Assembly: GCF_016924755.1 (NCBI RefSeq)
Contig: NZ_JAFFJX010000001.1
Coordinates: 806,001 to 870,000, forward strand
Source of the DNA: Longitalea arenae
GTDB lineage: Bacteria; Bacteroidota; Bacteroidia; Chitinophagales; Chitinophagaceae
Length of the DNA stretch: 64,000 nt
Direction of reading: 5' to 3'
Below the pieces are notes generated by a model. That model was not told where the DNA came from, did not search any database, and saw only the letters and a list, made by a program, of their open reading frames with translations. The stretch's first letter is position 1. Each line of letters starts with the position of its first letter. Of the stretch, positions 7,921 to 63,150 are shown piece by piece. The position numbers were made by a program, and so were the translations under genes.

Positions 7921-7955
7921 ATGTGATAATCTGATAATTTGCTAATATGCAAATG
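7921..7955. repeat. Short-period array (TGATAAT/TGCTAAT theme)
   Basis: Tandem degenerate 8-base words of the GTGATAAT, CTGATAAT, TTGCTAAT type fill the trmD upstream region. The same word theme occurs at 18091, 41446, 44020 and 62931. Confidence 0.6.
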
Positions 7956-8029
7956 AAATACAGCTCGAAGCACAAGCTTCAGATATAAGCTATTGCAATT
8001 AAAATCTCACCCTTCAGCAGGCTGGGCAG

Positions 8030-8419
8030 TTAATCCATAAACTCATCCAGGTCCCTTCTGTCTTTTTTGGTAGGCCGGCCAATTTTACTGAGGCGTTTAC
8101 CGGTATGAAAGCTGGAAGCCTGGAATTGGAGCCGTTCCAATTCTTCAGCGGGTGTAATGTCAATATAATATTTGATCGCTTCGCTATAGGCGACGCGGTT
8201 GTGCAGCAGGCCCGCAACTTTGATCCGCCAGCGGCGGGCTTCTGTTTTCACTTCGTATTCATCGCCTACATGCACCTGCTTGGCGGCTTTTGCCTGAACG
8301 CCATCGTATTTCACCTTTCCCGTGTCGCAGGCGGCAGCGGCCATTGTACGTGTTTTAAATAAACGGATCGACCACAGGTATTTATCCAGCCGGAGTTTTT
8401 CTGTTTTTTCTGTACTCAT
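8030..8419 (-). CDS. S4-domain RNA-binding protein, Hsp15/HslR-like
   Basis: Small basic protein (129 residues) with an N-terminal S4 domain: LRLDKYLWSIRLFKTRTMAAAAC, then GKVKYDGVQAKAAKQVHVGDEYEV, the alphaL RNA-binding motif. The basic tail IGRPTKKDRRDLDEFMD is typical of Hsp15. In E. coli Hsp15 recycles 50S subunits carrying a nascent chain with a blocked tRNA; the same role is inferred here. A TATCTTTG box at 8441-8448 lies about 20 bases upstream. It is probably transcribed alone. Confidence 0.85.
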   Translation of the reverse strand: MSTEKTEKLRLDKYLWSIRLFKTRTMAAAACDTGKVKYDGVQAKAAKQVHVGDEYEVKTEARRWRIKVAGLLHNRVAYSEAIKYYIDITPAEELERLQFQASSFHTGKRLSKIGRPTKKDRRDLDEFMD

Positions 8420-8440
8420 AATTCACTGTTTCTCTCTTTC

Positions 8441-8448
8441 CAAAGATA
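8441..8448 (-). promoter_or_regulatory. -7 promoter box of the S4-protein gene (TATCTTTG)
   Basis: The minus-strand sequence TATCTTTG matches TAnnTTTG and lies 21 bases upstream of the ATG at 8419. Confidence 0.5.
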
Positions 8449-8474
8449 AAAAATTGATGCGTAACGGGCAAGGA

Positions 8475-8632
8475 GCGTAGTTAGTGGTAAGTGGCGTGGG
8501 AAAGACAGGGGAATAGGTGCGAGGTGAGTAGTAAGTGGTGAGTGGCTGGTGGGAAACAAAAAAAGCGTAGAAAAAAAGTAGCGAATGGCGAGTAGGAAGC
8601 CCTCCTTGTCATTCGCTACTAACTACCAGCTT
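8475..8632. repeat. Paired short-period array (AGTGGTA theme), inverted arms
   Basis: The left side carries words such as GTAGTTAGTGGTAAGTGGC and AGTAGTAAGTGGTGAGTGG. The right side, CATTCGCTACTAACTACC, is its approximate reverse complement. Together they fill the gap between the S4 and M20 genes. Confidence 0.6.
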
Positions 8633-10000
8633 TTAAGAAGCAAAATATTTATGAAAATAAGGGATCGTTTCAATGCCCTTATAGAAATTCACGAGATCAA
8701 ATTTTTCATTAGGGGAATGCAGGTTATCGCTATCCAGGCCAAACCCCATGAACACTATTTTCACCCCCAGTTCTTTTTCCAGGATGGAACAGATCGGAAT
8801 ACTGCCGCCGCCGCGAACCGGGATGGGCTTTTTGCCAAAAGTGGTTTCAATGGCCTGTGCCGCTGCCCGGTAAGCTTTCGAATCGATGGGTGTCATATAG
8901 GGCTCACCACCGTGCAGGTTATACGCTTCTACGGTAACGCCTGCAGGCGCTATTTTCCGGAAATACTGCAATAACATCTCTGTTATTTTTTCTGACGACT
9001 GGTTGGGAACCAGCCTTGCGGAGATCTTTGCATAGGCTTTGGAAGGCAATACGGTTTTGGCGCCTTCGCCGGTATAACCGCCCCAGATGCCGTTCAGTTC
9101 GAGCGTTGGGCGGATGCCGGTACGTTCGTTGGTGGTATATCCTTTTTCGCCCCACAGCTCTTTTAGGCCCAGGTCGTTCTTGTATTCCGTTTCATCAAAA
9201 GGCGCTTCCGCCATTAGTTTTCTTTCGGCGGTGGTTGATTCCACCACATCGTCATAGAAACCCGGAATGGTGATATGATTGTTCTCGTCGTGGCAGGAGG
9301 CGATCATTTTTGCCAGCATGGTAATGGGATTGGCTACCGCACCGCCGTATACGCCGCTGTGCAGGTCGCGGTTGGCGCCCGTAACCTCCACCTGGATATA
9401 GGCCAGTCCACGCACCCCAATATCAATGGAAGGTGTATCCATGCTGATCATAGAACTGTCGCTGATGAGGATCACATCGCATTTCAGGAGGTCTTTGTGC
9501 GCTGCCACGAAATCGGCCAGGTTGGGTGAGCCTACTTCTTCTTCACCTTCTATGAGGAACTTGATATTGTTCTGCAATGAATTGGTCTTATGTAAGATCT
9601 CGAGGGCTTTTACATGCATATAGAACTGCCCTTTGTCATCGGCAGAACCACGCGCGTAAATCCGGCCATCTTTTATCACCGGTTCAAATGGACCGCTGTG
9701 CCAGAGTTCGAGCGGATCGGGCGGTTGCACATCATAGTGCCCATATACCAGCACTGTAGGTTTGGAAGGATCAACGATCTTTTCAGCGAATACAGCAGGA
9801 TGTCCGGCCGTTTCCAACAACTGCGCTTTATCGGCGCCAGCTTCGAGCAAGCGCTGCCTTACTTTTTCAGCACATTTTCTCATATCTTCCTTATGGGCGC
9901 TATTGGCGCTTACAGAAGGAATACGTAACAATTCCAGTAATTCATCCAGGAAGCGATCCTTGTTCTTTTCCTGGTAATCTTTCCAGGCTTGCATAATCAT
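8633..10000 (-). CDS. M20 family dipeptidase
   Basis: Zinc metallopeptidase of 455 residues of the M20 group that hydrolyses dipeptides or short peptides in the cytoplasm. Metal-site motifs are visible: VLVYGHYDVQPPDP, ARGSADDKGQ, the catalytic Glu pair in IEGEEEVGSPN, ISDSSM, and near the end MGFGLDSDNLHSPNEKF. The dimerisation domain (DLHSGVYGGAVANP) lies between. The second Met (9994) is an equally good start. A TATATTCG box at 10040-10047 is the likely -7 element. No signal peptide is seen. Confidence 0.9.
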   Translation of the reverse strand: MIMQAWKDYQEKNKDRFLDELLELLRIPSVSANSAHKEDMRKCAEKVRQRLLEAGADKAQLLETAGHPAVFAEKIVDPSKPTVLVYGHYDVQPPDPLELWHSGPFEPVIKDGRIYARGSADDKGQFYMHVKALEILHKTNSLQNNIKFLIEGEEEVGSPNLADFVAAHKDLLKCDVILISDSSMISMDTPSIDIGVRGLAYIQVEVTGANRDLHSGVYGGAVANPITMLAKMIASCHDENNHITIPGFYDDVVESTTAERKLMAEAPFDETEYKNDLGLKELWGEKGYTTNERTGIRPTLELNGIWGGYTGEGAKTVLPSKAYAKISARLVPNQSSEKITEMLLQYFRKIAPAGVTVEAYNLHGGEPYMTPIDSKAYRAAAQAIETTFGKKPIPVRGGGSIPICSILEKELGVKIVFMGFGLDSDNLHSPNEKFDLVNFYKGIETIPYFHKYFAS

Positions 10001-10058
10001 GAGTTTATTTAGTAATAAATGTGATTTGGGAACAGTGAGCGAATATATGTTTTTATTG

Positions 10059-10186
10059 GCTAGTGGTAAGTGGTAAATGGCTGGTAGAGCCTTTTATCCG
10101 ACAATCACGATTAATAGCTTTCTTCAGGTTGGGCTGGAACCTTCCTGTTTGTCTTTCCTACTCGCCACTCGCCACTTACTATTCGG
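10059..10186. repeat. Paired short-period array (AGTGGTA / CTCGCCA theme)
   Basis: The left arm at 10059-10090 has AGTGGTAAGTGGTAAATGG. The right arm at 10158-10186 has CTCGCCACTCGCCACTTACT. The arms are in inverted orientation around a core of about 65 bases. The theme is shared with 8475-8632. Confidence 0.6.
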
Positions 10187-10188
10187 TT

Positions 10189-11172
10189 TTACAAAGAATG
10201 CTTTTTATCCTTCAACACATTTTCCAGCGTCCAGGCTACCTGCTTTTCAAAAGGACGCTTGCGAACGGAGCATTCGTCGCGGGTGCAAATGCTGCATGAA
10301 AAATCAAGGCAGGGATCGGTATGTACGAAGAGTTCAAATACGGTTCCGAATTCCCGTTTGATCAGCAGCCCCAGCTCTTCCACTTCTTTATGGGCTTCCA
10401 CCACATTCAGGTACCAGGGCACGGTGAGGTGACAATCAATATGAAATTGTCCGCCATATTTGATCACACGCAGGTTATGCAGGTCGATCCAGTTCTTGCG
10501 GCGGTTGGCATTTAAAACGGCCAGCATTTTCTGCAGCAGTTCTTTATCGGCTTCATCCATGATGCCCGCGAGGGAATGACGCAAAATGCGGTAGCCGGTA
10601 TACATGATGATAAATGCAAGAATGATGGCGATCACACCATCCAGCCACGTGAGATGGGTCAGTCGTATCAAAACGAGGCCAATGATAATGCCCAGGGTAG
10701 AGTAGGTGTCGGACTGCAGGTGTTTGCCGCTGGCTACCAGGGCAAGAGAATTGTTTTTCTTTCCTTTACGGATGCTTATATATCCTACTACAAAGTTGAT
10801 GACGGCTGTAAGGGCTACCAGTATGATGCCGCGATCGAGTTGTTGCAATTCCCGCGGATAAACAAAATGGAGAACAGATTCATAAATGATCACCAGGGCA
10901 GCTACTATAATCAGTGTGCCTTCAACGGCGGCGCTCAGGAATTCGGCCTTGCCATGACCGTAGGGATGGTTTTCGTCGCGCGGTTTGGCTGCAACCCACA
11001 AGCTGTACAAACCAATAAATCCGGCAATCACATTTACGGTGCTTTCCAGCGCATCGGTTAAGATGGCCACAGAGCGGGTCAGCCAGTAGGCCACCATTTT
11101 AATGATGAACAGCAGTACGGCTACTGTTACCACCCATTTCTGTACCCGTAAATTTTCCCTGCCTGACTGCAT
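10189..11172 (-). CDS. Cation diffusion facilitator (CDF) metal exporter
   Basis: Inner-membrane metal/proton antiporter of 327 residues exporting Zn(II) or similar ions. Typical CDF features: early helices with SVAILTDALESTVNVIAGFIGL (metal site Asp in helix 2), the HPYGHGKAEFL loop and a C-terminal cytosolic domain with FHIDCHLTVPWYLNVVEAH. The tail after HTDPC has four cysteines spaced C-x4-C-x2-C-x4-C, a possible extra metal-sensing site. The start is placed at MQSGRENLRVQ (11172); the longer frame is less likely. A TACCTTCG box at 11188-11195 precedes it. Confidence 0.9.
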   Translation of the reverse strand: MQSGRENLRVQKWVVTVAVLLFIIKMVAYWLTRSVAILTDALESTVNVIAGFIGLYSLWVAAKPRDENHPYGHGKAEFLSAAVEGTLIIVAALVIIYESVLHFVYPRELQQLDRGIILVALTAVINFVVGYISIRKGKKNNSLALVASGKHLQSDTYSTLGIIIGLVLIRLTHLTWLDGVIAIILAFIIMYTGYRILRHSLAGIMDEADKELLQKMLAVLNANRRKNWIDLHNLRVIKYGGQFHIDCHLTVPWYLNVVEAHKEVEELGLLIKREFGTVFELFVHTDPCLDFSCSICTRDECSVRKRPFEKQVAWTLENVLKDKKHSL

Positions 11173-11187
11173 GCAAGTTATTTGGGG

Positions 11188-11195
11188 CGAAGGTA
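11188..11195 (-). promoter_or_regulatory. -7 promoter box of the CDF gene (TACCTTCG)
   Basis: The minus-strand TACCTTCG is close to TAnnTTTG and lies 15 bases before the ATG at 11172. Confidence 0.45.
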
Positions 11196-11242
11196 GCAAA
11201 GCCAGATCGTATAAAGCAAGGCGGGGTGGCTCACATAAAACT

Positions 11243-11446
11243 TTAACCCCCAACCAATTTTACGGGATATTTAAAAAAATTCGAATCCCGGCGCAAAATT
11301 GTTAGATTTTCTTTAATTGCCTGCGCTATTATTAACCTGTCAAACGGGTCTCTATGGTGAAAATCAAGATTTCTTAGTGTGTGAATGTGATCAAAGGCGA
11401 TTGGCAATACAACGATCTCCGTAACTGGTAACTGGGAAAAATTTCT
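11243..11446 (-). pseudogene. Remnant of a VapC/PIN-domain toxin gene (C-terminal half)
   Basis: The minus strand has an open stretch of about 68 codons ending in TAA at 11243. It reads ...VVLPIAFDHIHTLRNLDF, then HHRDPFDRLIIAQAIKENL, then TILRRDSNFFKYPVKLV. This is the C-terminal half of the type II toxin-antitoxin PIN RNase family (normally about 130 residues). HRDPFDR carries the conserved active-site Asp and LTILxxDxxFxxY the next motif. A TAA stop at 11447-11449 precedes it and there is no suitable start codon, antitoxin or N-terminal half nearby, so it is a decayed fragment. It accounts for most of the 328-base gap between the CDF and Lpt-like genes. Confidence 0.7.
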
Positions 11447-11500
11447 TTACGAGCAACGATGATTGGGTACGTGCCTGCAACCTGTAGCCTGCAACGCTTC

Positions 11501-12988
11501 TTAGGCCGTTTGTGGTTGTTGTTTGGCAGCTTTTTTCTTGCCTATTAACCGCTTAATGCCGCGGTATACGCGGAAGTAAAATTCTTTATTGAACAATTGC
11601 GAATCGTGCAGGGCTTTGTAAATAAGGAACATGCCAATAGGCAAGAGCACAGCGGTGGCCAGCCACATACCGGCAGCAGGCTGTAACACATCTTCTTTCA
11701 CAAACTTTTTACCGAAGTTGTTGAGCAGGAAGAAGATCACAAAGAAGATCACCGCAAACACGACCGGCGTTCCGATACCACCTTTGCGTACAATAGATCC
11801 CAATGGTGCACCGATCAGGAACAGGACGAGCACTGCAATGGACATGGTGATCTTTTCGTGGTAAGTCATCATGGTCATGCGCAGTTCCTTACGCTTGCCA
11901 TCATAATCCCATGACGGTCCCTCAATGGTCGACTTAACCGAGTTGGCGTAAGATATGCTCTGGTCTACCACCGTTTGTTTAACCGCAGAAAGCACTTTAT
12001 CGTTCTTCGACATCTTTGCACTATCGGGCAACAGATCTATGAAGCGGGCGCCTTTTTTAACGGGCGGCACTTTTACATCGATCCAGCCGGTGTCGAGGTA
12101 TTTCGAAAACATAAAATAGCCCTGCAGCTCCCTGATATCACGGTCTTTGAACTTAGCCAGGCTTCTTGAGATGGAATCTACATTCTTGCTCAGCTGCCGG
12201 GTACTTAACATCTCATAGCGGTCCTTATAGGTGCTGTCGGGCGTTTGAATGAGGGCCAGGGAGCTGAGGTCGAGTACTTTTTTATATTCTTTAAAACCCA
12301 GCCTGATGAAATCGGTGTTATGGGCATAACGGTTACCCCTTTCTTCGTAACGCCAGCCGTTGAAGAGAATAAACTCCAGGAAGCGTTTGTCGGAAGAAAG
12401 CCGCATAATGCCTTTTTCCGCGGCTACAATATTGTCCTGGGGGCCGGTGCTGGATTCATAAATGATCACATTGTGTAAAATGGAGTCATTTTCTTTTTTA
12501 GAAACTTTGATGGCGTAATCAGGAATAGTGGTATAGAATACGCCTTCTTTGAGGTCGAATGCCGGTTTCTTATTTACGAGGTCGTAGTGCAGGGTCTTCA
12601 TGCGCAGGTTGGCTACCGGTATAACATAGTTGTTAAAGAGGAAAGCCATACCCGATAACAGGGCGGCCACAACGGTGAGGGGCAGCATAAAACGCAACAG
12701 GCCGATGCCTGCCGATTTGATGGCCACCAGTTCGAAGGTTTCGCCCAGGTTACCAAAGGTCATGATAGAGGACAACAGGATGGCCAGTGGCAGGGCCAGG
12801 GGAACCAGGGTTGCGCTCAGGTATACCACCAGGCGAAGCATGGTAAAAACATCAATGCCCTTGCCCACAAAGTCATCGATCCACAGCCAGAAGAACTGTA
12901 GGATCAATACGAAGAGAGTAAGGAAAAAGGTTGCGATGAAAGGACCGATAAATGATCGCAAAACCAGTATGTCTAACTTTTTTATCAC
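11501..12988 (-). CDS. LptF/LptG (YjgP/YjgQ) family permease
   Basis: Inner-membrane permease component of the lipopolysaccharide export machinery (with LptB ATPase, encoded elsewhere). About 495 residues: N-terminal helices (IKKLDILVLRSFIGPFIATFF), LPLALPLAILLSSIMTFGNLGETFELVAIKSAGI (the coupling-helix region that contacts LptB), a large periplasmic beta-jellyroll, and C-terminal helices (IAVLVLFLIGAPLGSIVRKGGIG). The GTG at 12988 gives the normal family N terminus; an upstream in-frame ATG at 13039 would add 17 residues and run close to the divergent promoter. LptF versus LptG cannot be decided here. Confidence 0.87.
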   Translation of the reverse strand: MIKKLDILVLRSFIGPFIATFFLTLFVLILQFFWLWIDDFVGKGIDVFTMLRLVVYLSATLVPLALPLAILLSSIMTFGNLGETFELVAIKSAGIGLLRFMLPLTVVAALLSGMAFLFNNYVIPVANLRMKTLHYDLVNKKPAFDLKEGVFYTTIPDYAIKVSKKENDSILHNVIIYESSTGPQDNIVAAEKGIMRLSSDKRFLEFILFNGWRYEERGNRYAHNTDFIRLGFKEYKKVLDLSSLALIQTPDSTYKDRYEMLSTRQLSKNVDSISRSLAKFKDRDIRELQGYFMFSKYLDTGWIDVKVPPVKKGARFIDLLPDSAKMSKNDKVLSAVKQTVVDQSISYANSVKSTIEGPSWDYDGKRKELRMTMMTYHEKITMSIAVLVLFLIGAPLGSIVRKGGIGTPVVFAVIFFVIFFLLNNFGKKFVKEDVLQPAAGMWLATAVLLPIGMFLIYKALHDSQLFNKEFYFRVYRGIKRLIGKKKAAKQQPQTA

Positions 12989-13039
12989 GGGCGCTTGGTT
13001 CTTAGGTTCTTGTTTCTGATTGGCGGCCGCAAAGCACAT

Positions 13040-13069
13040 TTGTTACTTGCAAACCGCCACTTACCTTTA
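13040..13069 (+). promoter_or_regulatory. Promoter TTG-N19-TACCTTTA of a possibly leaderless gene
   Basis: TTG at 13040-13042 and TACCTTTA at 13062-13069 have exactly 19 bases between them. The ATG follows only 4 bases later at 13074, so the transcript may begin at the start codon. Confidence 0.55.
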
Positions 13070-13073
13070 CTGC

Positions 13074-14062: not shown

Positions 14063-14200
14063 CTAACCCTAATATTGATCTTTTTTGAAAATACCAATGG
14101 TGCAAGTATAGAAAATTAATGCTACCCCCAAAATTTTTTTTTGGCAAAATCAGGTAAAAAGTGCTAAAAATGAATAAATAAGCAAAAAATTTTCATATAT

Positions 14201-17497: not shown

Positions 17498-17553
17498 ATA
17501 TTGCCCATTGCGCATTTGCCAATTGCCCGTTGCTATTGCCCATTGTTCATTGA
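17498..17553. repeat. Single-arm heptad array (TTGCCCA theme)
   Basis: Degenerate 7-base words of the TTGCCCA, TTGCGCA, TTGCCAA, TTGTTCA type run up to the rimM promoter. One TTG of the array (17536-17538) is the best candidate for the rimM -33 box. Confidence 0.6.
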
Positions 17554-18090: not shown

Positions 18091-18224
18091 TGTGCTAATG
18101 TGCTGATCTGCTAATGTGCTAATGTCAGTGAGGCCAGGCTGAAGTTAAAGAGCGATTTCGACAATGGAAGGAAATTCGCAACCCAAGCATTAGCATATTA
18201 TCACATTAGCAAATTAGCTAATTA
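18091..18224. repeat. Paired octad array (GTGCTAAT theme), inverted arms
   Basis: The left arm at 18091-18126 repeats TGTGCTAATG. The right arm at 18187-18224 (CATTAGC, ATTATCACATTAGC, AAATTAGCTAATT) is its reverse complement. A unique core of about 60 bases lies between. The right arm overlaps the last codons of the convergent DinB-family gene. Confidence 0.65.
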
Positions 18225-18837: not shown

Positions 18838-18960
18838 AATAAATAAGGCAAAAGGGAGCAAGAAAGGCATAGAGGCAAAAAGGCACAAACGCACAAAGGC
18901 AAAAGCACAAGGCGAAAGGCAAAAAGGCACAAGGCAAAATTTTCGGCGGCGCAAGATCAA
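18838..18960. repeat. Heptad array (AAGGCAA/AAGGCAC theme)
   Basis: Degenerate words AAAGGCA, AAAAGGCACAA, ACGCACAAAGGC fill the region between the DinB-family and Crp-like genes. The same word theme recurs in frame inside the RluB-type gene at about 25655-25894. With 18985-19020 it accounts for most of the 254-base gap. Confidence 0.6.
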
Positions 18961-18984: not shown

Positions 18985-19020
18985 TATTGACCATTCACCA
19001 TTGACCATTCACCATTCCCC
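18985..19020. repeat. Heptad array (ACCATTC/ACCATTG theme)
   Basis: Near-perfect 7-base repeats CACCATT and GACCATT end 3 bases before the Crp-like stop. The same words in the same orientation occur at 47359-47383 inside the nuo operon. Confidence 0.65.
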
Positions 19021-19022
19021 AC

Positions 19023-19607: not shown

Positions 19608-19802
19608 TCTTGCGTGTTTTGAGTAAAATTAAATATTATCAAACAATGGGGCGGTTACCGGTTGACATTTACCAGTTTCTCTGGCCGTATCCAAAATTCC
19701 CTTAAACAGTAGGGAGAATGCTGAACCGTAAGGGCCCGGAACCCGGAAACCGGTGACCGGGAACATTTTACCATTCCCCAATTTCACTAACTTGTGTATT
19801 GA

Positions 19803-24019: not shown

Positions 24020-24096
24020 TTATTGAGTTCAAAAGTTATTAAGTTATTGGGCTGAGGTATTTACTTACAACCTCAATAACTTAATAACTGAATAAC
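24020..24096. repeat. Inverted octad array (GTTATTAA theme), possible bidirectional terminator
   Basis: The left arm AAGTTATTAAGTTATTG...GAGG pairs with the right arm CCTCAATAACTTAATAACT around a short A/T-rich centre. It exactly fills the 77-base convergent gap between the amidohydrolase and RluA-type genes. Confidence 0.65.
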
Positions 24097-24816
24097 TTAA
24101 GCGTTTTTACGCAATTGTTGAAGCAAAGCCCGCATATCCTTCGGCATTTCGGCTTGCAGATCGTGCTTATTACCCTGCATATCGGTAAAACACAGGCGTT
24201 GGGCGTGCAGGCCGGTGCGGGCAAGAATGGGCCGTTCTTCTTCCTCGTTCTTCGAGAGTTTATAATTGCGTTTAAAAGAAGAGATCTTTACAGGAATTCC
24301 ATCACCATACAATTCATCACAAACCAATGGATGACCAACATATTGCATGTGTACCCTGATCTGGTGCGTACGGCCGGTATGAATGCGGAACTGAACCAGC
24401 GAGAACTTACCGAATTCTTCCAGCACTTCATAATCGGTTACGGCAGGTTTTCCATTCTTGTGAATGAGCATGACCCCTCTTTTAACGGTGCTTTCCCTGA
24501 TAGCGGCATCGATGGTCTTTTGTTTTTCGGGCAGGGTGCCGGTAACAATGCCCTGGTAATATTTTTCTACTGCTCTTTCTTCAAATGCCTGTGACAGGAA
24601 TTTATGCGTTTCTGCTTCCTTGGCAAATACAATAATGCCACTGGTCTCCCGGTCGAGGCGGTGAACAGTGAAGATCTGCTCGTATCTCTGCAGCAAGATC
24701 TCTTTCAGCGAAATTTCTTTTCCTTCCCGGTCGGGAATGCTGAGCAGGCCCGGCGGTTTATTGATCACGATAAAATAGTCGTTCTCGAAAATGATCTCCG
24801 GTGATACTTTAACCAC
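24097..24816 (-). CDS. RluA family pseudouridine synthase
   Basis: Isomerises specific uridines in rRNA or tRNA (239 residues, no S4 domain). The catalytic motif is HRLDRETSGIIVFAK, with the invariant Asp. Other family segments are NDYFIVINKPPGLLSIPD and RIHTGRTHQIRVHMQYVGHPLVCDELYG. Its start overlaps the end of the upstream RluB-type gene by 8 bases, so the two pseudouridine synthases are probably translationally coupled. The target position in RNA is unknown. Confidence 0.9.
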   Translation of the reverse strand: MVKVSPEIIFENDYFIVINKPPGLLSIPDREGKEISLKEILLQRYEQIFTVHRLDRETSGIIVFAKEAETHKFLSQAFEERAVEKYYQGIVTGTLPEKQKTIDAAIRESTVKRGVMLIHKNGKPAVTDYEVLEEFGKFSLVQFRIHTGRTHQIRVHMQYVGHPLVCDELYGDGIPVKISSFKRNYKLSKNEEEERPILARTGLHAQRLCFTDMQGNKHDLQAEMPKDMRALLQQLRKNA

Positions 24817-26089
24817 GAGTAAGGTTTTTGTTTTTTGTATAAGAGGCGTTCAGGTATTTTAACAGGCGTACTTCTTTCTCTGTTAAAAAGCGCCACTTGC
24901 CTCTGTCTACATTCTTCTTGGTGAGGTTCGCATACATTACACGGTCAAGGTTGCGCACATCGTAACCCATGTGTTTGAAGATGCGGCGAACGATGCGATT
25001 GCGGCCACTGTGGATCTCGATACCGATCACGCTTTTATCTTTTGGATCGGCATACGCGAGTGAATCCGGTGCAATAAAACCATCTTCCAGGGTGATGCCG
25101 TTCAGGATGGTATCGAAATCTTTTTTTACGAGGGGTTTATCGAGCTTTACTTCGTAGATCTTTTTTATTTCGTAACTGGGGTGTGATAACTTCTGCGCCA
25201 ACTCACCATCGTTGGTGAGTAACAATACCCCTGTCGTATTTCTATCTAGGCGGCCGATAGGGTATACCCGTTCTTCGGTGGCATTGCGTATGATGTCTAA
25301 AACCGTTTTCCTGCCCTGGGGGTCTTCGGTAGTGGTGATATAGTCTTTCGGTTTATTGATCAGGATGTAGACCAGGTTCCTGCGGAGGAAGAGCTTTTTG
25401 CCATTCACTTTGATATCGTCTTTATCAGAAACTTTATGACCGGGCTCTACGATCTTTTCTCCGTTTACGATCACTTTGCCCGCCTTCACCAGTTCAGCTG
25501 CATCGCGCCGTGAACAGATACCGGCATGGGCAATGAATTTGTTCAGGGGCATTGAACCGGTTTCCGGTTTCGTGGTTTGTGGTTTATGGTTAGTGGTTTG
25601 TGGTTGGGTTCCCGGGCGTTCTGCTTTCTCAAATTTTGCTTTCGGCTTTTGGTCTTCCATTCGCTCCTTGCCTTTCTCAAAGCCTCTTTGCCTTTTTGCC
25701 TCAATGCCTTTCTCCTTGCCTTTATGCCTTGCTGCTTCTGTGCCTTTCTCAATGCCTCGTTGCCTTGTTACCTCGCTGCCTTTATGCCTTGCTGCCTCTG
25801 TGCCGCTCTCAATGCCTCGTTGCTTTTTTGCCTCTGTGCCGCTCTGCTTGCCTTTCTCTATACCTTTATGCCTTTTTGCCTCTGTGCCTCGCTTAAAGTC
25901 CTCTCTGCCTCTTTCCGACTGGTAACCACCTGCCTGACCCTGGGCTCTCGCCTCCCGGGCTTCATGTTTTTTCTTCTCGAAATATTCTTTGGTTTCCTGG
26001 CGGACCTTTTTCTTTTCCTGCCGGATGCGTTCTTTCTTTTTGGCGCCGCTGTCGCCTTTGTCCATAAATTTCTTGAATCCTTGTGCCAT
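24809..26089 (-). CDS. RluB-type pseudouridine synthase with long repeat-derived N-terminal linker
   Basis: RsuA/RluB-family enzyme of 426 residues. An S4 domain begins about residue 180 (MPLNKFIAHAGICSRRDAAELVKAGKVIVNG). The catalytic domain has GRLDRNTTGVLLLTNDGELA with the catalytic Asp, then EIHSGRNRIVRRIFKHMGYDVRNLDRV. Before it lies an odd extension: a Lys/Glu-rich start (residues 5-50), then low-complexity repeats such as GTEAKRHKGIEKG (about 66-145) and a TQPQTTNHKPQTTKPETG segment (about 161-178). At DNA level these are heptad arrays like the spacer repeats. MAQGFKKFMDKG at 26089 is the likely start. The downstream RluA-type gene overlaps it by 8 bases. Confidence 0.9.
   Translation of the reverse strand: MAQGFKKFMDKGDSGAKKKERIRQEKKKVRQETKEYFEKKKHEAREARAQGQAGGYQSERGREDFKRGTEAKRHKGIEKGKQSGTEAKKQRGIESGTEAARHKGSEVTRQRGIEKGTEAARHKGKEKGIEAKRQRGFEKGKERMEDQKPKAKFEKAERPGTQPQTTNHKPQTTKPETGSMPLNKFIAHAGICSRRDAAELVKAGKVIVNGEKIVEPGHKVSDKDDIKVNGKKLFLRRNLVYILINKPKDYITTTEDPQGRKTVLDIIRNATEERVYPIGRLDRNTTGVLLLTNDGELAQKLSHPSYEIKKIYEVKLDKPLVKKDFDTILNGITLEDGFIAPDSLAYADPKDKSVIGIEIHSGRNRIVRRIFKHMGYDVRNLDRVMYANLTKKNVDRGKWRFLTEKEVRLLKYLNASYTKNKNLTRG
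25555..25894. repeat. In-frame heptad arrays inside the RluB-type gene
   Basis: On the minus strand two different themes occur: AAGGCAA/AAGGCAT-type words at about 25655-25894 and AACCACA/AACCACT/AACCATA-type words at about 25555-25610. They stay in frame because no stop arises in that reading, and they encode the low-complexity linker. Confidence 0.65.
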
Positions 26090-26126
26090 GTGTAGTAGTT
26101 TGCTGTTTTTCAACAGTAGTGAGCGG

Positions 26127-26134
26127 CAAAGGTA
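26127..26134 (-). promoter_or_regulatory. -7 promoter box of the pseudouridine synthase operon (TACCTTTG)
   Basis: The minus-strand TACCTTTG matches TAnnTTTG, 38 bases upstream of the ATG at 26089. It lies immediately downstream of the terminator of the preceding gene, which fits a new transcription unit. Confidence 0.55.
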
Positions 26135-26140
26135 CAAAAT

Positions 26141-26995: not shown

Positions 26996-27108
26996 CGTTC
27001 ACAAGTTCTTAACTTATTAAGTTCCTTATTGAGTTCATGAGTTATTAAGTTAAATACAGTCGCGAGGCTGAATAACTGAACAACTGAACAACTGATAACT
27101 GAATACAA
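26996..27108. repeat. Paired octad array (AGTTATTAAG / ATAACTGA theme)
   Basis: The left arm (AACTTATTAAGTTCC, GAGTTATTAAGTTA) and right arm (GAATAACTGAACAACTGAACA, split as GAATAACTGA and ACAACTGA) are in inverted orientation around a GC-rich centre. The array ends at the rlmN stop. The rest of the 269-base gap has a small CCTGCC/GGCAGG hairpin at 26925-26941 and no gene that I can see. Confidence 0.6.
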
Positions 27109-41438: not shown

Positions 41439-41445
41439 AACTAAT

Positions 41446-41575
41446 TAGCTAATGTGCTAATGTGATAATGTGCTAATGCTTTTGCGCGGCCTTCGGGAAC
41501 ATTAAGGATGTGCTGGGTGTTATACTGTAGCGAGTAATTATCAAATTAGCCAATTATCAAATTATCAAATTAAGT
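41446..41575. repeat. Paired octad array (GCTAATGT / ATTATCAA theme) between nuoA and nuoB
   Basis: The left arm repeats GCTAATGT and GATAATGT words. The right arm ATTATCAAATTAGCC, ATTATCAAATTATC is in inverted orientation. A unique core of about 55 bases lies between the arms. Confidence 0.65.
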
Positions 41576-42160: not shown

Positions 42161-42225
42161 CCCGACTAAAGGTCGGGGCGGGTTGTGCTGATTAGCTGAT
42201 TTGCTAATGGGCTAATTGGTTACCG
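42161..42225. repeat. Hairpin and octad words between nuoB and nuoC
   Basis: A 6-bp stem (CCCGAC with GTCGGG) at 42161-42177 is followed by GGTTGTGCTGATTAGCTGATTT-type words up to 42225. A related CGACTACAGCCGACAGGTTGTGC block occurs at 44100 before nuoE. Confidence 0.5.
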
Positions 42226-44019: not shown

Positions 44020-44135
44020 AGCAATGTGCTAATGTGCTAATGTGCTAATTGGCTAATGTGCTAATGGAAACAATAAACGATCTGCTAATTAGCTAATCGC
44101 GACTACAGCCGACAGGTTGTGCTAATTACTAAAAC
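44020..44135. repeat. Octad array (GTGCTAAT theme) between nuoD and nuoE
   Basis: At least four nearly perfect GTGCTAAT units from 44025, then GGCTAATG, TGCTAATTAGCTAATC and finally GGTTGTGCTAATTAC. Most units here face the same way; only the ATTAGCTAAT part is self-complementary. Confidence 0.65.
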
Positions 44136-44153
44136 AAAAATATTTCAATAACA

Positions 44154-44654: not shown

Positions 44655-44686
44655 TATTTGAAGTTCATTAAAAGTAGCGAGCTGTT

Positions 44687-44756
44687 ACAGGTTGCAAGTT
44701 ACAGGTTGCAGGGAAATCCCTGAAACCTGAAACCTGGAACTTGAAACGGTTCTTCT
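44687..44756. repeat. Inverted heptad/octad array (ACAGGTTGCA / ACCTGAA theme) between nuoE and nuoF
   Basis: The left arm TTACAGGTTGCAGGGA pairs with TCCCTGAAACCTGAAAC around a 2-base loop. Both arms are made of repeated short words. Confidence 0.65.
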
Positions 44757-46128: not shown

Positions 46129-46182
46129 ACGAAATAAATTTAAAAACTAAATAGTCCGCCAGTAGGCGGATTTGGGGTGAAT

Positions 46183-47358: not shown

Positions 47359-47383
47359 ACCATTGACCATTCACCATTGACGA
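47359..47383. repeat. Heptad array (ACCATTG/ACCATTC theme) between nuoG and nuoH
   Basis: Units ACCATTG, ACCATTC, ACCATTG follow one another just before the nuoH start. Same theme and orientation as 18985-19020. Confidence 0.6.
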
Positions 47384-47398
47384 TAATAAACAACAAAA

Positions 47399-50017: not shown

Positions 50018-50019
50018 TA

Positions 50020-50126
50020 CGCAAAACGCTCAACGCTTCAGCCGGCACCGAGGTGCCAGCGTGATAGCGGAAATACCGGATTCCGGAAACCAGCGTTCGG
50101 CGTTTAGCATTCAGCCTTCAGCTTAA
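50020..50126. repeat. Paired heptad array (AACGCTC / GCGTTCG, CAGCCTT theme) between nuoK and nuoL
   Basis: The left arm AACGCTCAACGCTTCAGC is roughly complementary to the right arm CAGCGTTCGGCGTTTAGC. More words ATTCAGCCTTCAGCTT follow. The core contains GC-rich palindromes (GGCACC/GGTGCC, CCGGATTCCGG). Confidence 0.6.
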
Positions 50127-50130
50127 AAAT

Positions 50131-52047: not shown

Positions 52048-52069
52048 ACATTAGCACGGAGCGATTGAA

Positions 52070-52104
52070 TCCATAAATCAAGAAATCAGAAATCAAGAAA
52101 TTAT
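52070..52104. repeat. Short-period array (AAATCAAG theme) between nuoL and nuoM
   Basis: Units AAATCAAG, AAATCAG, AAATCAAG, AAATTATA run to the nuoM start codon. It nearly fills the 58-base spacer. Confidence 0.55.
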
Positions 52105-56602: not shown

Positions 56603-56610
56603 GGTGGGGG

Positions 56611-59148: not shown

Positions 59149-59351
59149 TAATAGTAATTGTTTTTTTTGGGGCTCAGACGAATTTTAATGGATACTTAAT
59201 TTCATGGCCGGTGCTTCAGAAAATCGGTATTACGCTGTCCATCTGAATGATTAAACCATTGCGAAAATTGAATGGATGAAGGTAGGAAAAACATAATGTG
59301 TGACGATGCTGGCGAGTTACCGCTGATCAAAAAAGTATTATATGGTGTTCT

Positions 59352-59530
59352 TATAGACAATCGGCAATAGGCAATAAACAATAGACAATAAGTAATAGGA
59401 AATGGACAAATGACAATGAACAGCAAAAAAGCCTGGTATGGGCATAGCGGCAGGTAACGGAAAACAGGTAAGCTGTTAAACAGGAATCTTTTGCAAATTG
59501 CCGCCTGCTTATTGGCCATTGGTTCAGGCG
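59352..59530. repeat. Paired heptad array (GGCAATA / TTATTGGC theme)
   Basis: The left arm at about 59352-59420 has GGCAATAGGCAATAAACAATAG and relatives. The right arm at about 59507-59522 (GCTTATTGGCCATTGG) is in inverted orientation. A core of about 85 bases lies between. Confidence 0.6.
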
Positions 59531-59581
59531 CTTGTTTTGTTTCTAATTATGACATATATTGTTGCCGTTCTATTCAATCAA

Positions 59582-59664
59582 ATCGCCTGTTTTTTAGGCG
59601 ATCAGTTAAGAAATTTCTTAACTTGTGAACCTTATCAAAATTTTTCTTGATCTTTTTGATCAAG
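59582..59664 (+). promoter_or_regulatory. Three inverted repeats in series upstream of exbB
   Basis: ATCGCCT/AGGCGAT at 59582-59602 (loop of 7), the perfect 18-base palindrome GTTAAGAAATTTCTTAAC at 59605-59622, and CTTGATC/GATCAAG at 59646-59664 (loop TTTTT). They lie 86-168 bases before the exbB ATG; they may be operators or an RNA leader fold. Confidence 0.5.
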
Positions 59665-59749
59665 TGAAATGACTTTTTCCTTAGAATTGTGAGCCCATTT
59701 AGAATCTACTGATAGCTTAAAATTTATAAAACACTAAAAAAACACAATC

Positions 59750-60616
59750 ATGGCTGAAACAAGACCCGTTGCGACTGCAACCGCAGCGAAGAGTAGTACA
59801 TCCGTTCAACCAAAGAAAAGATCCAATGCCATTTCATGGGTAGCCCCTGTTGTTTGTATCATTGCCGGTTATGTTATCTGGCGTTTTCTCCTCGGAGATC
59901 CTAACAACTTTACTCAACCAGATCCAGCCGGTGGATTTTGGCCTCATCATAAAGGACCTAAAGGAGGTTTGGTGAGAATGTATGAAGGTGGTATTATCGT
60001 GCCTCTGCTGATCGCAACTTTCTTAGTTGTAATTACCTTCGTTATTGAGCGTTTGATGACCATTCTGAAAGCTACCGGTACTGGTAACATTGCAGAATTC
60101 ATTCGCAAAGTACAATATCACCTGGCTAACAAAAACGTTGACCAGGCTATTTCTGAGTGCGATCGTCAAAAAGGAAGCGTTGGTAATGTGATGAAAGCCG
60201 GTCTGCGCAAGTACAAAGAAATGATCTCTAATACTGAGCTGGATACTGAGCAAAAAGTATTAGCTATCCAGAAAGAAGTAGAAGAAGCAACTGCCCTTGA
60301 GCTGCCTATGCTGGAAAAGAACCTGGTGTTCCTGTCTACCATCGCCTCAGTGGCAACCCTGTTGGGTCTGTTGGGAACGGTATTGGGTATGATCACTTCA
60401 TTTGCTGCCCTGGCTTCTGATGGTGGTGGTGGTGCTGCCGCTGAGTTATCAAGAGGTATCTCTGAGGCCCTGTATAACACGGCCCTGGGTATCGGTACTT
60501 CAGCGATCGCGATCATCATGTATAACATCTTTACTACAAAGATCGACTCTATTACTTATGGTATCGATGAGTCTGGTTTCACCCTGACCCAAAGCTTTGC
60601 ATCTCTGTATAAATAA
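59750..60616 (+). CDS. exbB: ExbB/TolQ/MotA-family proton channel protein
   Basis: Inner-membrane proton-channel subunit (288 residues) of the TonB energy-transduction complex. After a polar, Lys/Thr-rich start comes a first helix (ISWVAPVVCIIAGYVIWRFLL), then GGIIVPLLIATFLVVITFVIERLMTIL. The C-terminal pair is NLVFLSTIASVATLLGLLGTVLGMITSFAALA and GISEALYNTALGIGTSAIAIIMYNIFTTKID, the ExbB/TolQ core motif. The extra N-terminal helix is a Bacteroidota variant. It opens an operon of five exb/ton genes. Confidence 0.93.
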   Translation: MAETRPVATATAAKSSTSVQPKKRSNAISWVAPVVCIIAGYVIWRFLLGDPNNFTQPDPAGGFWPHHKGPKGGLVRMYEGGIIVPLLIATFLVVITFVIERLMTILKATGTGNIAEFIRKVQYHLANKNVDQAISECDRQKGSVGNVMKAGLRKYKEMISNTELDTEQKVLAIQKEVEEATALELPMLEKNLVFLSTIASVATLLGLLGTVLGMITSFAALASDGGGGAAAELSRGISEALYNTALGIGTSAIAIIMYNIFTTKIDSITYGIDESGFTLTQSFASLYK

Positions 60617-60623
60617 GGCGGCA

Positions 60624-60650
60624 TCCCCAAAATGGGGAAGCTGTTTTTTT
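60624..60650 (+). terminator. Intercistronic weak terminator between exbB and exbD
   Basis: A 6-bp stem (TCCCCA with TGGGGA) with a 3-base loop, 4 more bases, then eight T residues. It sits in the 108-base gap and could reduce transcription of downstream genes relative to exbB. Confidence 0.55.
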
Positions 60651-60724
60651 TGAAAAAATGCATGTGATGCATATGGAAATTGGAAGGAAGTGAATCTTAT
60701 ACCAGAATCTGAAATTATTATAAT

Positions 60725-61384
60725 ATGCCTAAAGTAAAAATGCCGCGAAAGAGTACCGCTGTGGACATGACCGCGATGTGTGATGTGGCATTCCTGCTGC
60801 TTTCTTTCTTCATCCTGACCACCAAATTCAAATCACCTGATGCAGTGGAAGTTGTAACACCTAATTCGGTGTCTACCAAACCTGTGGAGGCCAAGAATGT
60901 AGTGCAGGTCATCATGGACAAAGAAGGGAAAGTTTTCTTCTCTGTTGGTGATGAAAGCGTGGATGAAAAAGCGCAGATCATTGACATGATCAATGAGGGG
61001 AAGAGCCTTAACCTGACCGAGCAGGAGAAAGCTGCTTTTACAAAGTCCGGTTCCTATGTGGGCGTTCCTTTTGCCATGTTGAAGTCGTTCCTGCAGTTGT
61101 CACCCGACCAGTTGAAAAACTATAAGGCCCCGGGAATCCCTACAGATACGGCCAACAACGAATTGAGTGTTTGGATGAATGCTGCCACCCGTGCTTTCTC
61201 AGGAGCTAAAATGGCCCTGATGGTAAAAGGTGACAACAATGCAAAATATCCTTCATTCAAAGGGGTTATCGATGCATTCAAAAAGAATGAGATCTTTAAG
61301 TTCTCGATGGTCACTAACCCTGAGGGAGTTCCTGAAGGAACAGCGCTTTCTCAAAAGAGAGCGACTGGTGCAAAAGAGGAATAA
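60725..61384 (+). CDS. exbD: ExbD/TolR-family biopolymer transport protein (first copy)
   Basis: 219-residue protein with a short N-terminal cytoplasmic tail, one transmembrane helix with the proton-carrying Asp (VDMTAMCDVAFLLLSFFILTTKF) and a periplasmic domain. It is longer than E. coli ExbD (about 140), because of an insertion of roughly 60 residues in the periplasmic part. KNVVQVIMDKEGKVFFSVGDE is the typical first strand. It forms the proton-driven core with ExbB. Confidence 0.92.
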   Translation: MPKVKMPRKSTAVDMTAMCDVAFLLLSFFILTTKFKSPDAVEVVTPNSVSTKPVEAKNVVQVIMDKEGKVFFSVGDESVDEKAQIIDMINEGKSLNLTEQEKAAFTKSGSYVGVPFAMLKSFLQLSPDQLKNYKAPGIPTDTANNELSVWMNAATRAFSGAKMALMVKGDNNAKYPSFKGVIDAFKKNEIFKFSMVTNPEGVPEGTALSQKRATGAKEE

Positions 61385-61420
61385 GAGCGAATTAAATTCT
61401 TAACTTAAAAAAAGTGCGAA

Positions 61421-61963
61421 ATGGCAGAAATGGATACCTCCTCCGGAGGAGGACATAAAAAAGGCCCAGGCGTAAAGAAAGGGAAAAAACTTTCTACGCG
61501 TGTTGACCTTACGCCGATGGTGGATCTGGGATTCCTGCTGATAACGTTCTTCATATTCACCACTACCATGAGCCAGCCCACTGCTATGAAGCTTTTCCTG
61601 CCGAAAGACACGGAAAAGCCCGAAGAGCAGAATAAGATCAAGGCCTCTGGTGCTTTGTCTATCATGCTGGGTAGAGGAAATGGAGTATATTATTATGAAG
61701 GCGAGTTGGCGCCAGACGGTTCCAACTTTAAATCAAGCAACTTTAAAGATATCCGTCAGGTTATCATCAATAAAAAGAAATCTACCAACCCGCAGGATTT
61801 TGTAGTGGTTATAAAACCCGGCCCCGAGGCTACCTACAAAAACACCGTAGACATGCTTGATGAAATGACCATCAATGATGTTAAGCGTTATGCGATGGTA
61901 GATATTTTCCAGACGGAAATTGATTTAATGAGAGCTACTGAACAAAGTGGCGGCGTTAAATAA
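61421..61963 (+). CDS. exbD: ExbD/TolR-family biopolymer transport protein (second copy)
   Basis: 180-residue ExbD paralogue with a Gly/Lys-rich N terminus (SSGGGHKKGPGVKKGKK), the helix VDLTPMVDLGFLLITFFIFTTTM carrying the essential Asp, and a periplasmic domain ending AMVDIFQTEIDLMRATEQSGG. Two different ExbD proteins in one operon are common in this phylum and may form heterodimers in the pentameric ExbB pore; this is inference. The gap after the first copy is only 36 bases. Confidence 0.92.
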   Translation: MAEMDTSSGGGHKKGPGVKKGKKLSTRVDLTPMVDLGFLLITFFIFTTTMSQPTAMKLFLPKDTEKPEEQNKIKASGALSIMLGRGNGVYYYEGELAPDGSNFKSSNFKDIRQVIINKKKSTNPQDFVVVIKPGPEATYKNTVDMLDEMTINDVKRYAMVDIFQTEIDLMRATEQSGGVK

Positions 61964-62016
61964 GTTGCTTTATGGAATTTTATATTCTGTGCATCTAATT
62001 ACAAAGATTTTTTAAT

Positions 62017-62853
62017 ATGGAAGTCAATAAAATATTAAGCGCTGATGTTCTTGACATCATCTTCGAGGGCCGGAATAAGGACTACGGTGCTTATGAACTG
62101 CGCAAGACCTATAACAGGCGATTGATCACATCGCTGCTTATAGTAGGTGCGCTTTGTCTTCTGATGTTTATAGGATACCTCGTATCCTCTTTACTGGAGA
62201 CAAAGACGGATACCGATAAGGTGGTTGTTCAGGACGTGCAGCTCGAAGAAATAAAACAGGAAGAGAAAAGGGAAGAGCCGCCACCACCGCCTCCCCCAAA
62301 ACCACCAGAGCCACCGAAAGTGGAAATGGCTAAGTTCACACCTCCCAAGATCGTAAAAGACGAAGAGGTTAAAGAAGAGGAGAAACCACCAGAAGTAGAA
62401 AAGCTGGAAGAGACCAAGATCGGTACTATGAACCAGGAAGGTCAGAAAGATGAAGGTATTGTGGCTCCTCCGGTTGACGATGCCGGTAAAGGAGTGGTGG
62501 AAGCTCCCAAGAAAGATGAAGAAGACTGGGATAAAACCTTTACCAAGGTGGAAATTGAGTCGGAGTATCCCGGTGGAGCTGCAGCATGGCAGCGCTACCT
62601 GAACAGGAACCTCCGCTATCCCCAGGAAGCTATTGATAACGAAGTGCAAGGTGCTGTAGTGGTACAGTTCATTGTGGACAAAGAAGGTAATGTGAGTGAT
62701 GTCGAAGCCATCAGCGGACCCAACGAATTACGCGGTGAAGCTGTTCGGGTAATCAAGAAAAGCGGTAAATGGACACCAGCTGTACAGAACGGACGCCAGG
62801 TAAAATCGTACAAGAAGCAACCGATCGTTTTCCGTCTCGAATCGGAAGGATAA
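62017..62853 (+). CDS. tonB: TonB family energy transducer (first copy)
   Basis: 278-residue periplasm-spanning protein: a cytoplasmic start (VLDIIFEGRNKDYGAYELRKTYNRR), one helix (LITSLLIVGALCLLMFIGYLVSSL), a Pro/Glu/Lys-rich rod (PPPPPPPKPPEPPKVEMAKF), and the C-terminal TonB domain (GGAAAWQRYLNRNLRYPQEAIDNEVQGAVVVQFIVDKEG, ending VKSYKKQPIVFRLE). It transmits proton-motive force to outer-membrane TonB-dependent receptors such as SusC-type transporters. The second copy follows after a 379-base gap with a terminator. Confidence 0.93.
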   Translation: MEVNKILSADVLDIIFEGRNKDYGAYELRKTYNRRLITSLLIVGALCLLMFIGYLVSSLLETKTDTDKVVVQDVQLEEIKQEEKREEPPPPPPPKPPEPPKVEMAKFTPPKIVKDEEVKEEEKPPEVEKLEETKIGTMNQEGQKDEGIVAPPVDDAGKGVVEAPKKDEEDWDKTFTKVEIESEYPGGAAAWQRYLNRNLRYPQEAIDNEVQGAVVVQFIVDKEGNVSDVEAISGPNELRGEAVRVIKKSGKWTPAVQNGRQVKSYKKQPIVFRLESEG

Positions 62854-62880
62854 GCTAACCTAGCTTTATGTAAAATATTT

Positions 62881-62915
62881 AAGTCCTCTCTTAACCGGGA
62901 GGACTTTTTGTTTTT
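62881..62915 (+). terminator. Rho-independent terminator of the first tonB
   Basis: A perfect 8-bp stem (AAGTCCTC with GAGGACTT), 10-base loop and a T-rich tail (TTTGTTTTT). It begins 28 bases after the stop. Confidence 0.8.
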
Positions 62916-62930
62916 AAGGCAAACGCTCTG

Positions 62931-63150
62931 ATGTGATAATATGATAATTGGATAATGTGATAATGAATACATCTCTTCATTTGTGATTGCTAACTAAATG
63001 GCAACTTCAAAGCAATGCAATGGCGGGGCTACTTAATCTGCGAACATGCACATATGCATTCCTTAACCATCGTAGCTGATCATCAATTAACCCAGTGGTT
63101 TTAATTATCAAATTATCAAATTATCGAATTATCACATTATCACATTGCAT
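62931..63150. repeat. Paired octad array (TGATAATG / ATTATCAA theme) between tonB genes
   Basis: The left arm at 62931-62964 (GTGATAATATGATAATTGG, ATAATGTGATAATG). The right arm at 63103-63150 (AATTATCAAATTATC repeated, then ACATTATCACATT) is its inverted counterpart. The unique core is about 140 bases. This and the terminator account for most of the 379-base gap 62854-63232; I see no further gene there. Confidence 0.65.

Follow-up and report, generated by a model that had tools for sequence, protein, structure and literature searches.

What are the short tandem repeats in the intergenic spacers of Longitalea arenae (Chitinophagaceae)? The window, a 64,000-base stretch of this genome (contig NZ_JAFFJX010000001.1, positions 806,001 to 870,000), has spacers built of degenerate tandem words of 7 or 8 bases, some of them paired as inverted arms. 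Intergenic heptamer repeats have been reported since about 1990, and we found no agreed origin or function for them. The arrays of the window are probably the end arms, complete or on their own, of small mobile elements with an S23p gene, which form a large class. S23p (PF05635, 23S_rRNA_IVP; TIGR02436) is a four-helix bundle and is encoded by the open reading frame (ORF) of 23S rRNA intervening sequences (IVS). A complete element would consist of mostly four or five tandem degenerate 7/8-base words, the S23p gene and the same word array in inverted orientation. At the sites examined such elements appear to sit between genes. The members in the window would be non-coding forms, either inverted arms round a short unique core or single arms.

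Arrays in the host genome and at S23p genes

The 7/8-base arrays in the spacers are real. The host genome (G000) has 7.28 Mb, of which a sample of 464 kb (6%) with 320 spacers was analyzed. The spacers were delimited by a home-made gene caller, and a few extend into gene starts. The tandem test covered lags of 4 to 15 at a segment score of at least 14, with 20 dinucleotide shuffles as the control. There are 30 segments at lag 7 and 31 at lag 8, compared with shuffle means of 0.15 and 0.05. Lags 4-6 and 9-13 result in 0-3 segments, lag 14, the double of 7, in 20 and lag 15 in 3. Coding sequence of equal length has 0.5 segments at lag 7 and 0.2 at lag 8. An earlier note on this stretch had named 18 spacers as array-bearing, and all 18 hold a lag-7 or lag-8 array scoring at least 12; for those named at 8475, 24020, 42161 and 50020 the array is at 8515-8552, 24072-24096, 42187-42222 and 50073-50122. 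Shuffled spacers, the comparison it had proposed, bear out the excess: 45 of the 320 spacers have an array at the test threshold, compared with 0.2 in the shuffles. A lower threshold gives 79 arrays in 60 of the 320 spacers, 43 with 7-mer and 36 with 8-mer words. The note had also given each locus its own word, which does not hold; the words are not private to a locus and recur as families within the genome and across genera. For one 8-mer pattern, with up to 3 mismatches allowed, the whole genome contains 467 overlapping matches, compared with 0 for its reversed control. The host has S23p at only six loci, all outside the window, therefore the non-coding copies outnumber the coding ones.

S23p genes are linked to such arrays. 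A PF05635 search of 12 genomes of the family gives 64 matches in 9 genomes, and the 30 loci returned of these matches form the family set. Inverted flanking arms with a score of at least 26 are present at 28 of the 30 loci, compared with 7 of 214 control genes. In a second set, from the genus, either inverted arms or an array on each flank is present at 19 of 20 S23p loci, the exception being L259. The cross-phyla set takes one genome per bacterial or archaeal species and contains the best 80 of at least 471 relatives; 79 were used, since the flank of L231 was too short. A 7/8-mer array lies on at least one flank at 76 of these 79 best-matching loci and on both flanks at 51, and inverted arms exceed the shuffles at 58. 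When placed by title, 26 of the 79 are outside Bacteroidota, and 24 of the 26 have arrays. Windows of the same size displaced 700 bases outward were possible at 72 of the 79 loci (7 had no room), and contain arrays in 6 cases and inverted repeats in none. From 23 matching plasmid records, 12 S23p loci were also read, 11 of them cyanobacterial and one of Gemmatimonadota. All 12 have a flank array, with words such as GGGAGTA and GGGAACA, whereas the displaced windows have 0; inverted arms exceed the shuffles at 9.

At 140 S23p loci (L263 was dropped) the period is 7 in 200 arrays and 8 in 41. Four or five words are present in 162 of these 241 arrays, a count in which 3-word arrays are under-detected. 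The host arrays are less sharply confined to four or five words (39 of 79). The S23p gene is under purifying selection, with dN of 0.02-0.21 and dS of 0.44 to saturated in 18 overlapping pairs.

Correlation between words and S23p proteins

The words of an S23p locus correlate with its protein. The comparison includes 101 S23p loci with long flanks, as 8 short-flank loci of 109 were dropped; L162 was dropped because it equals L132. Loci in different neighborhoods with a protein identity of at least 0.65 have a mean word similarity of 0.75 (45 pairs, 82% above 0.6), compared with 0.31-0.34 at identities below 0.55 (1-3% above 0.6). Since L170 and L172 enter many of the 45 pairs, one best pair was taken per pair of site groups. 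At an identity of at least 0.65 this leaves 13 pairs with a mean of 0.72, 8 of them above 0.6, and at 0.60-0.65 it leaves 21 pairs with a mean of 0.45, 4 of them above 0.6. The 34 best pairs at 0.6 or more have a mean of 0.551 compared with 0.339 when permuted, a value that 0 of 2000 permutations reach. Such pairs also join phyla, as for L213 of Balneolaceae with L220 of Tamlana and L227 of Deltaproteobacteria with L217 of WOR-3. Loci in the same neighborhood with an identity below 0.5 have unlike words (bin means of 0.24-0.36, except for a single pair at 0.54). As similarity of the words tends to accompany closeness of the S23p proteins, also between different sites, the protein most likely recognizes the words.

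The same words connect the window to S23p genes. The host S23p loci carry GTGCTAAT (L243), GATTTTGA (L244), GGTTACC (L242), GGCAATA (L138), GTTTGTG (L155) and a GTTCAAA-like word (L146), and of these GTGCTAAT and GGCAATA are present in the window. Arms of 31 S23p loci of the genus are matched at a similarity of at least 0.6 by 64 of the 79 host arrays, compared with 6 of 79 when shuffled. The host S23p loci alone are matched by 48 of 79, and 60 mostly distant loci, which include a few Chitinophagaceae, by 23 of 79. In the window, 15 of 23 arrays match a genus arm. The window features are listed below, with the strand where one applies. A similarity to a locus is that of the words to the arm of that S23p locus, with 0.6 as the match threshold, and the inverted-repeat (IR) score calls a window unit at 22. 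G007 belongs to the same GTDB genus as the host.

7920..7954, plus strand: 8-mer array with word TAATNTGA; 0.75 to the host S23p locus L243.
8515..8620: 7-mer array AGTGGTGA (8515-8552) and inverted arms 8577-8596 and 8601-8620; 0.64 to L142; passes the IR threshold.
10054..10176: 7-mer array AGTGGTA (10054-10080) with a weak partner ACTCGCC (10160-10176); 0.59 to L143.
17500..17552, minus strand: solo 7-mer array ATTGCCC upstream of a plus-strand gene; 0.75 to the G007 S23p locus L159.
18091..18224: ORF-less unit between two stop codons, with left arm GTGCTAAT (18091-18125), unique core and right arm (18188-18224); IR 33; left arm 1.04 to L243; core single copy in the host genome.
18852..18932, plus strand: 8-mer array AAGGCAAA; 1.00 to the arm of the G003 S23p locus L250.
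18986..19021, minus strand: 7-mer array ATTGACC/ATTCACC; only 0.57 to genus arms.
19735..19760: 7-mer array CCCGGAA/AACCGG; 0.77 to the host locus L242.
24020..24096: ORF-less unit with convergent stop codons on either side, with a GTTATTAA arm, core and inverted arm (array 24072-24096); IR 32; best S23p arm match poor, 0.48.
25566..25605: 7-mer array GGTTTGT in the coding N-terminal extension of a pseudouridine synthase.
25669..25889: array of AAGGCA/TGCCTT words in the N-terminal extension of the same pseudouridine synthase.
26997..27105: ORF-less unit with a GTTATTAA-type left arm and right arm AATAACTGA; IR 23; 0.54 and 0.36 to genus S23p arms.
41441..41572: ORF-less unit in the nuoA-nuoB spacer, with left arm (41441-41478), core and right arm (41536-41572); IR 31; 1.00 to L243 and 1.04 to L248.
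42187..42222, plus strand: 8-mer array GCTGATTA in the nuoB-nuoC spacer; similarity 0.79.
44023..44066, plus strand: 8-mer array AATGTGCT in the nuoD-nuoE spacer; similarity 1.11.
44684..44747: unit in the nuoE-nuoF spacer, with left arm GTTACAGG, 4-base core and right arm CCTGAAAC; IR 30; left arm 0.68 to L150, right arm 0.54.
47359..47384, minus strand: 7-mer array ACCATTG in the nuoG-nuoH spacer; similarity 0.54.
50018..50122: unit in the nuoK-nuoL spacer, with AACGC words on the left and GCGTT words on the right (array 50073-50122); paired arms in G007, G003, G006 and G005; 0.57 to genus S23p arms.
52068..52101: 8-mer array AAATCAAG in the nuoL-nuoM spacer; 0.89 to the G007 S23p locus L247.
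59353..59416, plus strand: 7-mer array GGCAATA; 0.82 to the host S23p locus L138.
62931..63146: ORF-less unit with left arm ATGTGATA (62931-62965), core of about 140 bases and right arm AATTATCA (63103-63146); IR 53; 1.04 and 1.11 to L248.

The earlier note counted at least ten loci with inverted arms. The inverted arms are real, but the number is too high; seven window units reach the threshold of 22, and about three more (9995-10188, 44020-44153 and 50018-50130) have weak but visible paired arms below it. The pseudouridine synthase has an S4 domain and occupies 24809-26137 on the minus strand, and its N-terminal extension is encoded by AAGGCA and GTTTGTG words.

Array density follows S23p copy number with a rho of 0.68 in 54 genomes and 0.66 in the 45 outside the genus, where density refers to a single orthologous nuo region (64 kb in the host and mostly about 19 kb in the other genomes), without phylogenetic correction. 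At least 3 arrays are present in 25 of 43 S23p-positive genomes and in 0 of 11 S23p-negative genomes. This basis of the density is one of several points that weigh against the arrays being arms of S23p elements. Five S23p-positive genomes have no array in the nuo region, and three S23p-negative genomes have 1-2. Over all different-site pairs the rank correlation of words and proteins is only 0.12 (rho), with a signal visible only above an identity of about 0.6, and some pairs above 0.6 are discordant (for example L136-L159 with identity 0.63 and similarity 0.24; L201-L206 with 0.64 and 0.32). Eight of the 23 window arrays, including GTTATTAA/TAACTGA and ACCATTG, have no sampled genus S23p arm at 0.6 or more, and the PF05635 search of all sampled regions gave no S23p ORF in the window. 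The ORF-less cores have no common motif in k-mer tests, where the top k-mers are leftover words. One 67-base core, considered for capture from elsewhere, has itself as the sole match in the host genome. The ORF-less units are therefore no simple deletion copies. With a median pI of 6.9, the S23p domains are not basic, genes of PF13366 also seem, by eye, to be flanked by inverted repeats, and the family and cross-phyla S23p sets overlap (L162 = L132).

Arm polarity and gain or loss of units

Inverted repeats scoring at least 24 number 148 in 742 spacers of 55 genomes, compared with 7 in one shuffle of each. Seventy of them are within arrays and have AT-rich arms with a median length of 25.5 and a median core of 60, and the remaining 78 have a median loop of 9. 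The units largely fill their spacers, as both flanks sum to at most 25 bases in 48% of 69 units. For polarity, 69 of the 70 array repeats were used, since one long self-folding array was dropped. In 54 array repeats G exceeds C in the 5' arm, and in 9 it falls below C (p=6e-9), whereas the ratio is 30:34 in other hairpins. At S23p loci the 5' arm is G-rich by 104:17, or by 36:8 with one tie when counted by site group. The p-values for arm polarity are too small because related arrays are not independent. Solitary arrays keep the inward polarity according to the spacer end (left 44:24, right 20:52), and their polarity is independent of transcription sense (55:52). Rho-site avoidance was considered as the cause of the G-rich 5' arm and rejected, because it predicts a fixed sense for solitary arrays. 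The two arms also covary to a moderate degree. With arms picked by pairing, the self value is the higher one in 89 of 106 ordered comparisons with cross values, equal in 3 and lower in 14. With unbiased halves, 38 of 65 spacers (p=0.016) and 13 of 20 loci have a self value above the cross mean. Since arm choice by pairing is biased, only moderate covariation is claimed.

The inverted arms might instead be RNA hairpins selected as transcript stabilizers, terminators or translational regulator sites, and RNA roles are suggested for short tandemly repeated repetitive sequences (STRRs) in PMC2670836 and for TAACTGA repeats in PMC4679880. Many units are within operons such as nuo, close against stop and start codons. 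The arrays per kb rise from 0.72 in divergent spacers to 1.34-1.42 in codirectional and 1.65 in convergent ones, as an RNA function predicts. However, divergent spacers are not avoided when counted per spacer (9 of 49 compared with 81 of 366), and there is no sign of pairing at the RNA level. The transcript-sense mismatches of 70 codirectional array units are equal (G.U 46, A.C 45), whereas 104 non-array hairpins of codirectional spacers have G.U 37 and A.C 18; S23p loci in the ORF sense have G.U 168 and A.C 175 (124 loci). The polarity of solitary arrays follows the spacer end and not transcription, and at orthologous spacers words are swapped or units are absent. Selection as RNA hairpins is therefore very unlikely to explain the arms, and the stabilizer or terminator role guessed at earlier is unsupported by the mismatch pattern.

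Elements are gained or lost as units at the sites examined, since sites empty in some relatives are filled in others. Across nine species of the genus, the nuoA-nuoB unit retains one word family, and the nuoJ-nuoK spacer has three different words or nothing. The nuoM-nuoN and nuoC-nuoD spacers are empty in some species and have 81-109 additional bases with a unit in others. In G007 the word is swapped in both arms at 9995-10188 and 24020-24096. The words at orthologous spacers thus differ between related species, as the earlier note had raised. The spacer between argC and an argD-like transaminase gene has neither S23p nor array in the host, G001, G002 and G005. It is filled by one S23p lineage in G007 and by another, with other words, in G006 and G003, whose S23p have 73% identity to each other and 50% to that of G007. 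By eye, the element at the argC site replaces most of the resident spacer. Beside dapF, the spacer is filled in G007, G003 and G002, whereas that of the host, G001, G005 and G006 is empty. No target site duplication is evident, by eye, at the two junctions inspected (nuoM-nuoN and argC).

Replication slippage that favors steps of 7-8 bases could also generate arrays anywhere, which would then spread neutrally, with S23p genes merely landing in them. A polymerase-contact idea of this type is cited in PMC4692102. Near-duplicate units about 1.2 kb apart (62931-63146; L010 143-356) differ, by eye, in the number of words per arm, as between 63103-63146 and L010, so existing arrays also slip. Coding arrays exist as well, in a tolerant linker. 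However, slippage accounts neither for the inversion of the arms nor for their inward G-rich polarity, seen in 36 of 45 site groups (8 opposite, 1 tie), and it does not give words that track the S23p lineage. Relatives that lack S23p at the argC and dapF sites have no array there for it to land in. Slippage is therefore a very unlikely origin of the arrays.

A reverse transcriptase, either of a diversity-generating retroelement (DGR) or similar to that of a retron or a telomerase, could write the arrays with an Avd-like S23p as its partner. S23p is distantly related to Avd, with NF033474 and bAvd matches below the cut-off (PMC10053308). RVT_1 was searched in 47 distinct genomes; it has 6 matches in the host and is present in all nine genus genomes searched. 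The mark of a DGR that was looked for, a reverse transcriptase in the genome, is present in the host but lacking in six S23p-rich genomes; G045, G043, G056, G068, G042 and G040 have 8-16 S23p copies and no RVT_1 match. In addition, RVT_1 is present in G031, G061 and G066, where the sampled region lacks arrays. This generator was dropped because RVT_1 is absent from several array- and S23p-rich genomes; it is highly improbable, and an RVT_1 reverse transcriptase seems not to be needed. The de novo formation by slippage or reverse transcription proposed earlier is not supported either, as the words follow the S23p lineage, several rich genomes have no RVT_1 and units occur at sites that are empty in relatives.

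Possible mechanism and relation to known repeats

If the arrays are arms of small mobile elements with an S23p gene, the non-coding members are probably spread in trans by S23p proteins whose genes lie at other loci of the genome. TRAP is a ring that binds triplets repeated in tandem in RNA. A solved relative of S23p, 2gsc (XCC0516 of Xanthomonas, E=1.5e-30), is given as a ring of five four-helix bundles in PMC4990558 and in a paper title in the references of PMC10053308. Since such a ring would have five sites and the arms have four or five words, each S23p subunit may, by analogy to TRAP, bind one word. A wider proposal is tentative and rather less likely to hold than to fail. Most intergenic heptamer and octamer repeats (STRRs, TAACTGA, GGGAATC and IVS heptamers) might be arms of one phylum-spanning class driven by S23p. 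The S23p pentamer would be the word reader, wrapping one strand with one word per subunit and usually from the G-rich 5' side, and it would mobilize non-coding units in trans with neither a transposase nor a reverse transcriptase of its own.

The nearest system is the IVS of Coxiella, in which terminal inverted repeats enclose an S23p ORF (PMC4990558). Tandem GACAGAT heptamers, the number of which varies by strain, precede this ORF, and the ORF of one strain carries a large deletion. The S23p loci described here likewise have an S23p ORF between inverted repeats, and terminal inverted repeats are found in seven window units. In contrast, RNase III excises the Coxiella IVS from the rRNA helix in which it lies (PMC4990558), whereas the present elements lie between protein genes, ORF-less copies dominate and the words vary with lineage. 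The window has no Rfam family at the gathering score. Because the window arrays share the words and architecture of S23p loci but lack the rRNA location and the internal ORF, they are classed as a new variant of S23p/IVS-type elements that is intergenic and, for the most part, non-coding.

STRR heptamers were reportedly described by Mazel in 1990 (cited in PMC4692102). They consist of 7-base tandem words in spacers and can form hairpins, according to the accessible part of PMC2670836, which makes no link to S23p. The present arrays are similar in their tandem 7-base spacer words and several families, but include 8-base words that are nearly as common (36 compared with 43). All 11 cyanobacterial plasmid S23p loci that were read have 7/8-mer arrays beside them and their displaced windows have none, which agrees with the choice of STRRs as nearest analogue in the earlier note. 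The TAACTGA direct repeats occur in Beggiatoaceae, Cyanobacteria and Bacteroidetes, many of them near start codons (PMC4679880). They too are intergenic heptamers with a patchy distribution over distant phyla, and the window has a related word at 27068-27095. The accessible text describes them mainly as one word with a proposed translational role, without S23p. The GGGAATC repeats of Xanthomonas and Nostoc are, like the present arrays, intergenic heptamers that sometimes form inverted pairs; from species to species the pair type is usually kept while the length changes, and they are read as G-quadruplexes (PMC4692102). The term S23 does not occur in the text of that paper. In a literature search with few subscription papers in reach, no text joined heptamer arrays to S23p in general, the nearest being that on the Coxiella IVS (PMC4990558).

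Miniature inverted-repeat transposable elements (MITEs) are short non-coding units with inverted ends that outnumber the coding copies. The present units resemble MITEs in that non-coding units with inverted ends outnumber coding copies. They differ in having ends of tandem words, no common core and no identified transposase parent, although no search was aimed at transposases. A MITE family with related internal sequence was considered and rejected, since there is no core motif and the tested core is single copy. The view in the earlier note that the loci are not copies of one sequence agrees with the absence of a common core motif and with the different words at some orthologous spacers.

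The S23p family is described as of unknown function in PMC4990558. Word recognition would give S23p a probable ligand and would suggest a relation of the rRNA IVS to repeats elsewhere in genomes. Since one protein family is tied to heptamer repeats across phyla, the question can be tested with one purified protein and one word. If S23p reads the words, the word change between protein lineages offers natural data on how specifically proteins recognize nucleic acids.

There are also several minor observations. A reverse transcriptase at G000:C2:63835-64461 lies in an open frame of about 505-530 aa, and most of the genus genomes searched have a counterpart of about the same length; no link to arrays was seen. 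PF13366 has 13 matches in 3 of the 12 family genomes, and some of the flanks resemble inverted repeats with longer or less regular words. The PDDEXK_3 (PF13366) genes L120, L123 and L126 in G025 are perhaps a parallel element class. In the nuo region of other genera, S23p lies between word arms at L081 6858-7157 (G065) and L084 7306-7623 (G019), and L089 7554-7900 (G023) has only a very weak possible S23p remnant between word arms. The cyanobacterial S23p genes L267 and L269 sit between CRISPR-associated genes (cas6/cas4 and cas10/Cmr3 family). The nuoF-nuoG spacer is short in the host (46129-46176) and has an insert of 360-480 bases in G007, G003, G001 and G006. The insert contains a small ORF between CCCCTAAAGGGG-type ends, and the G001 copy encodes DUF559 (PF04480, E=1.3e-34).

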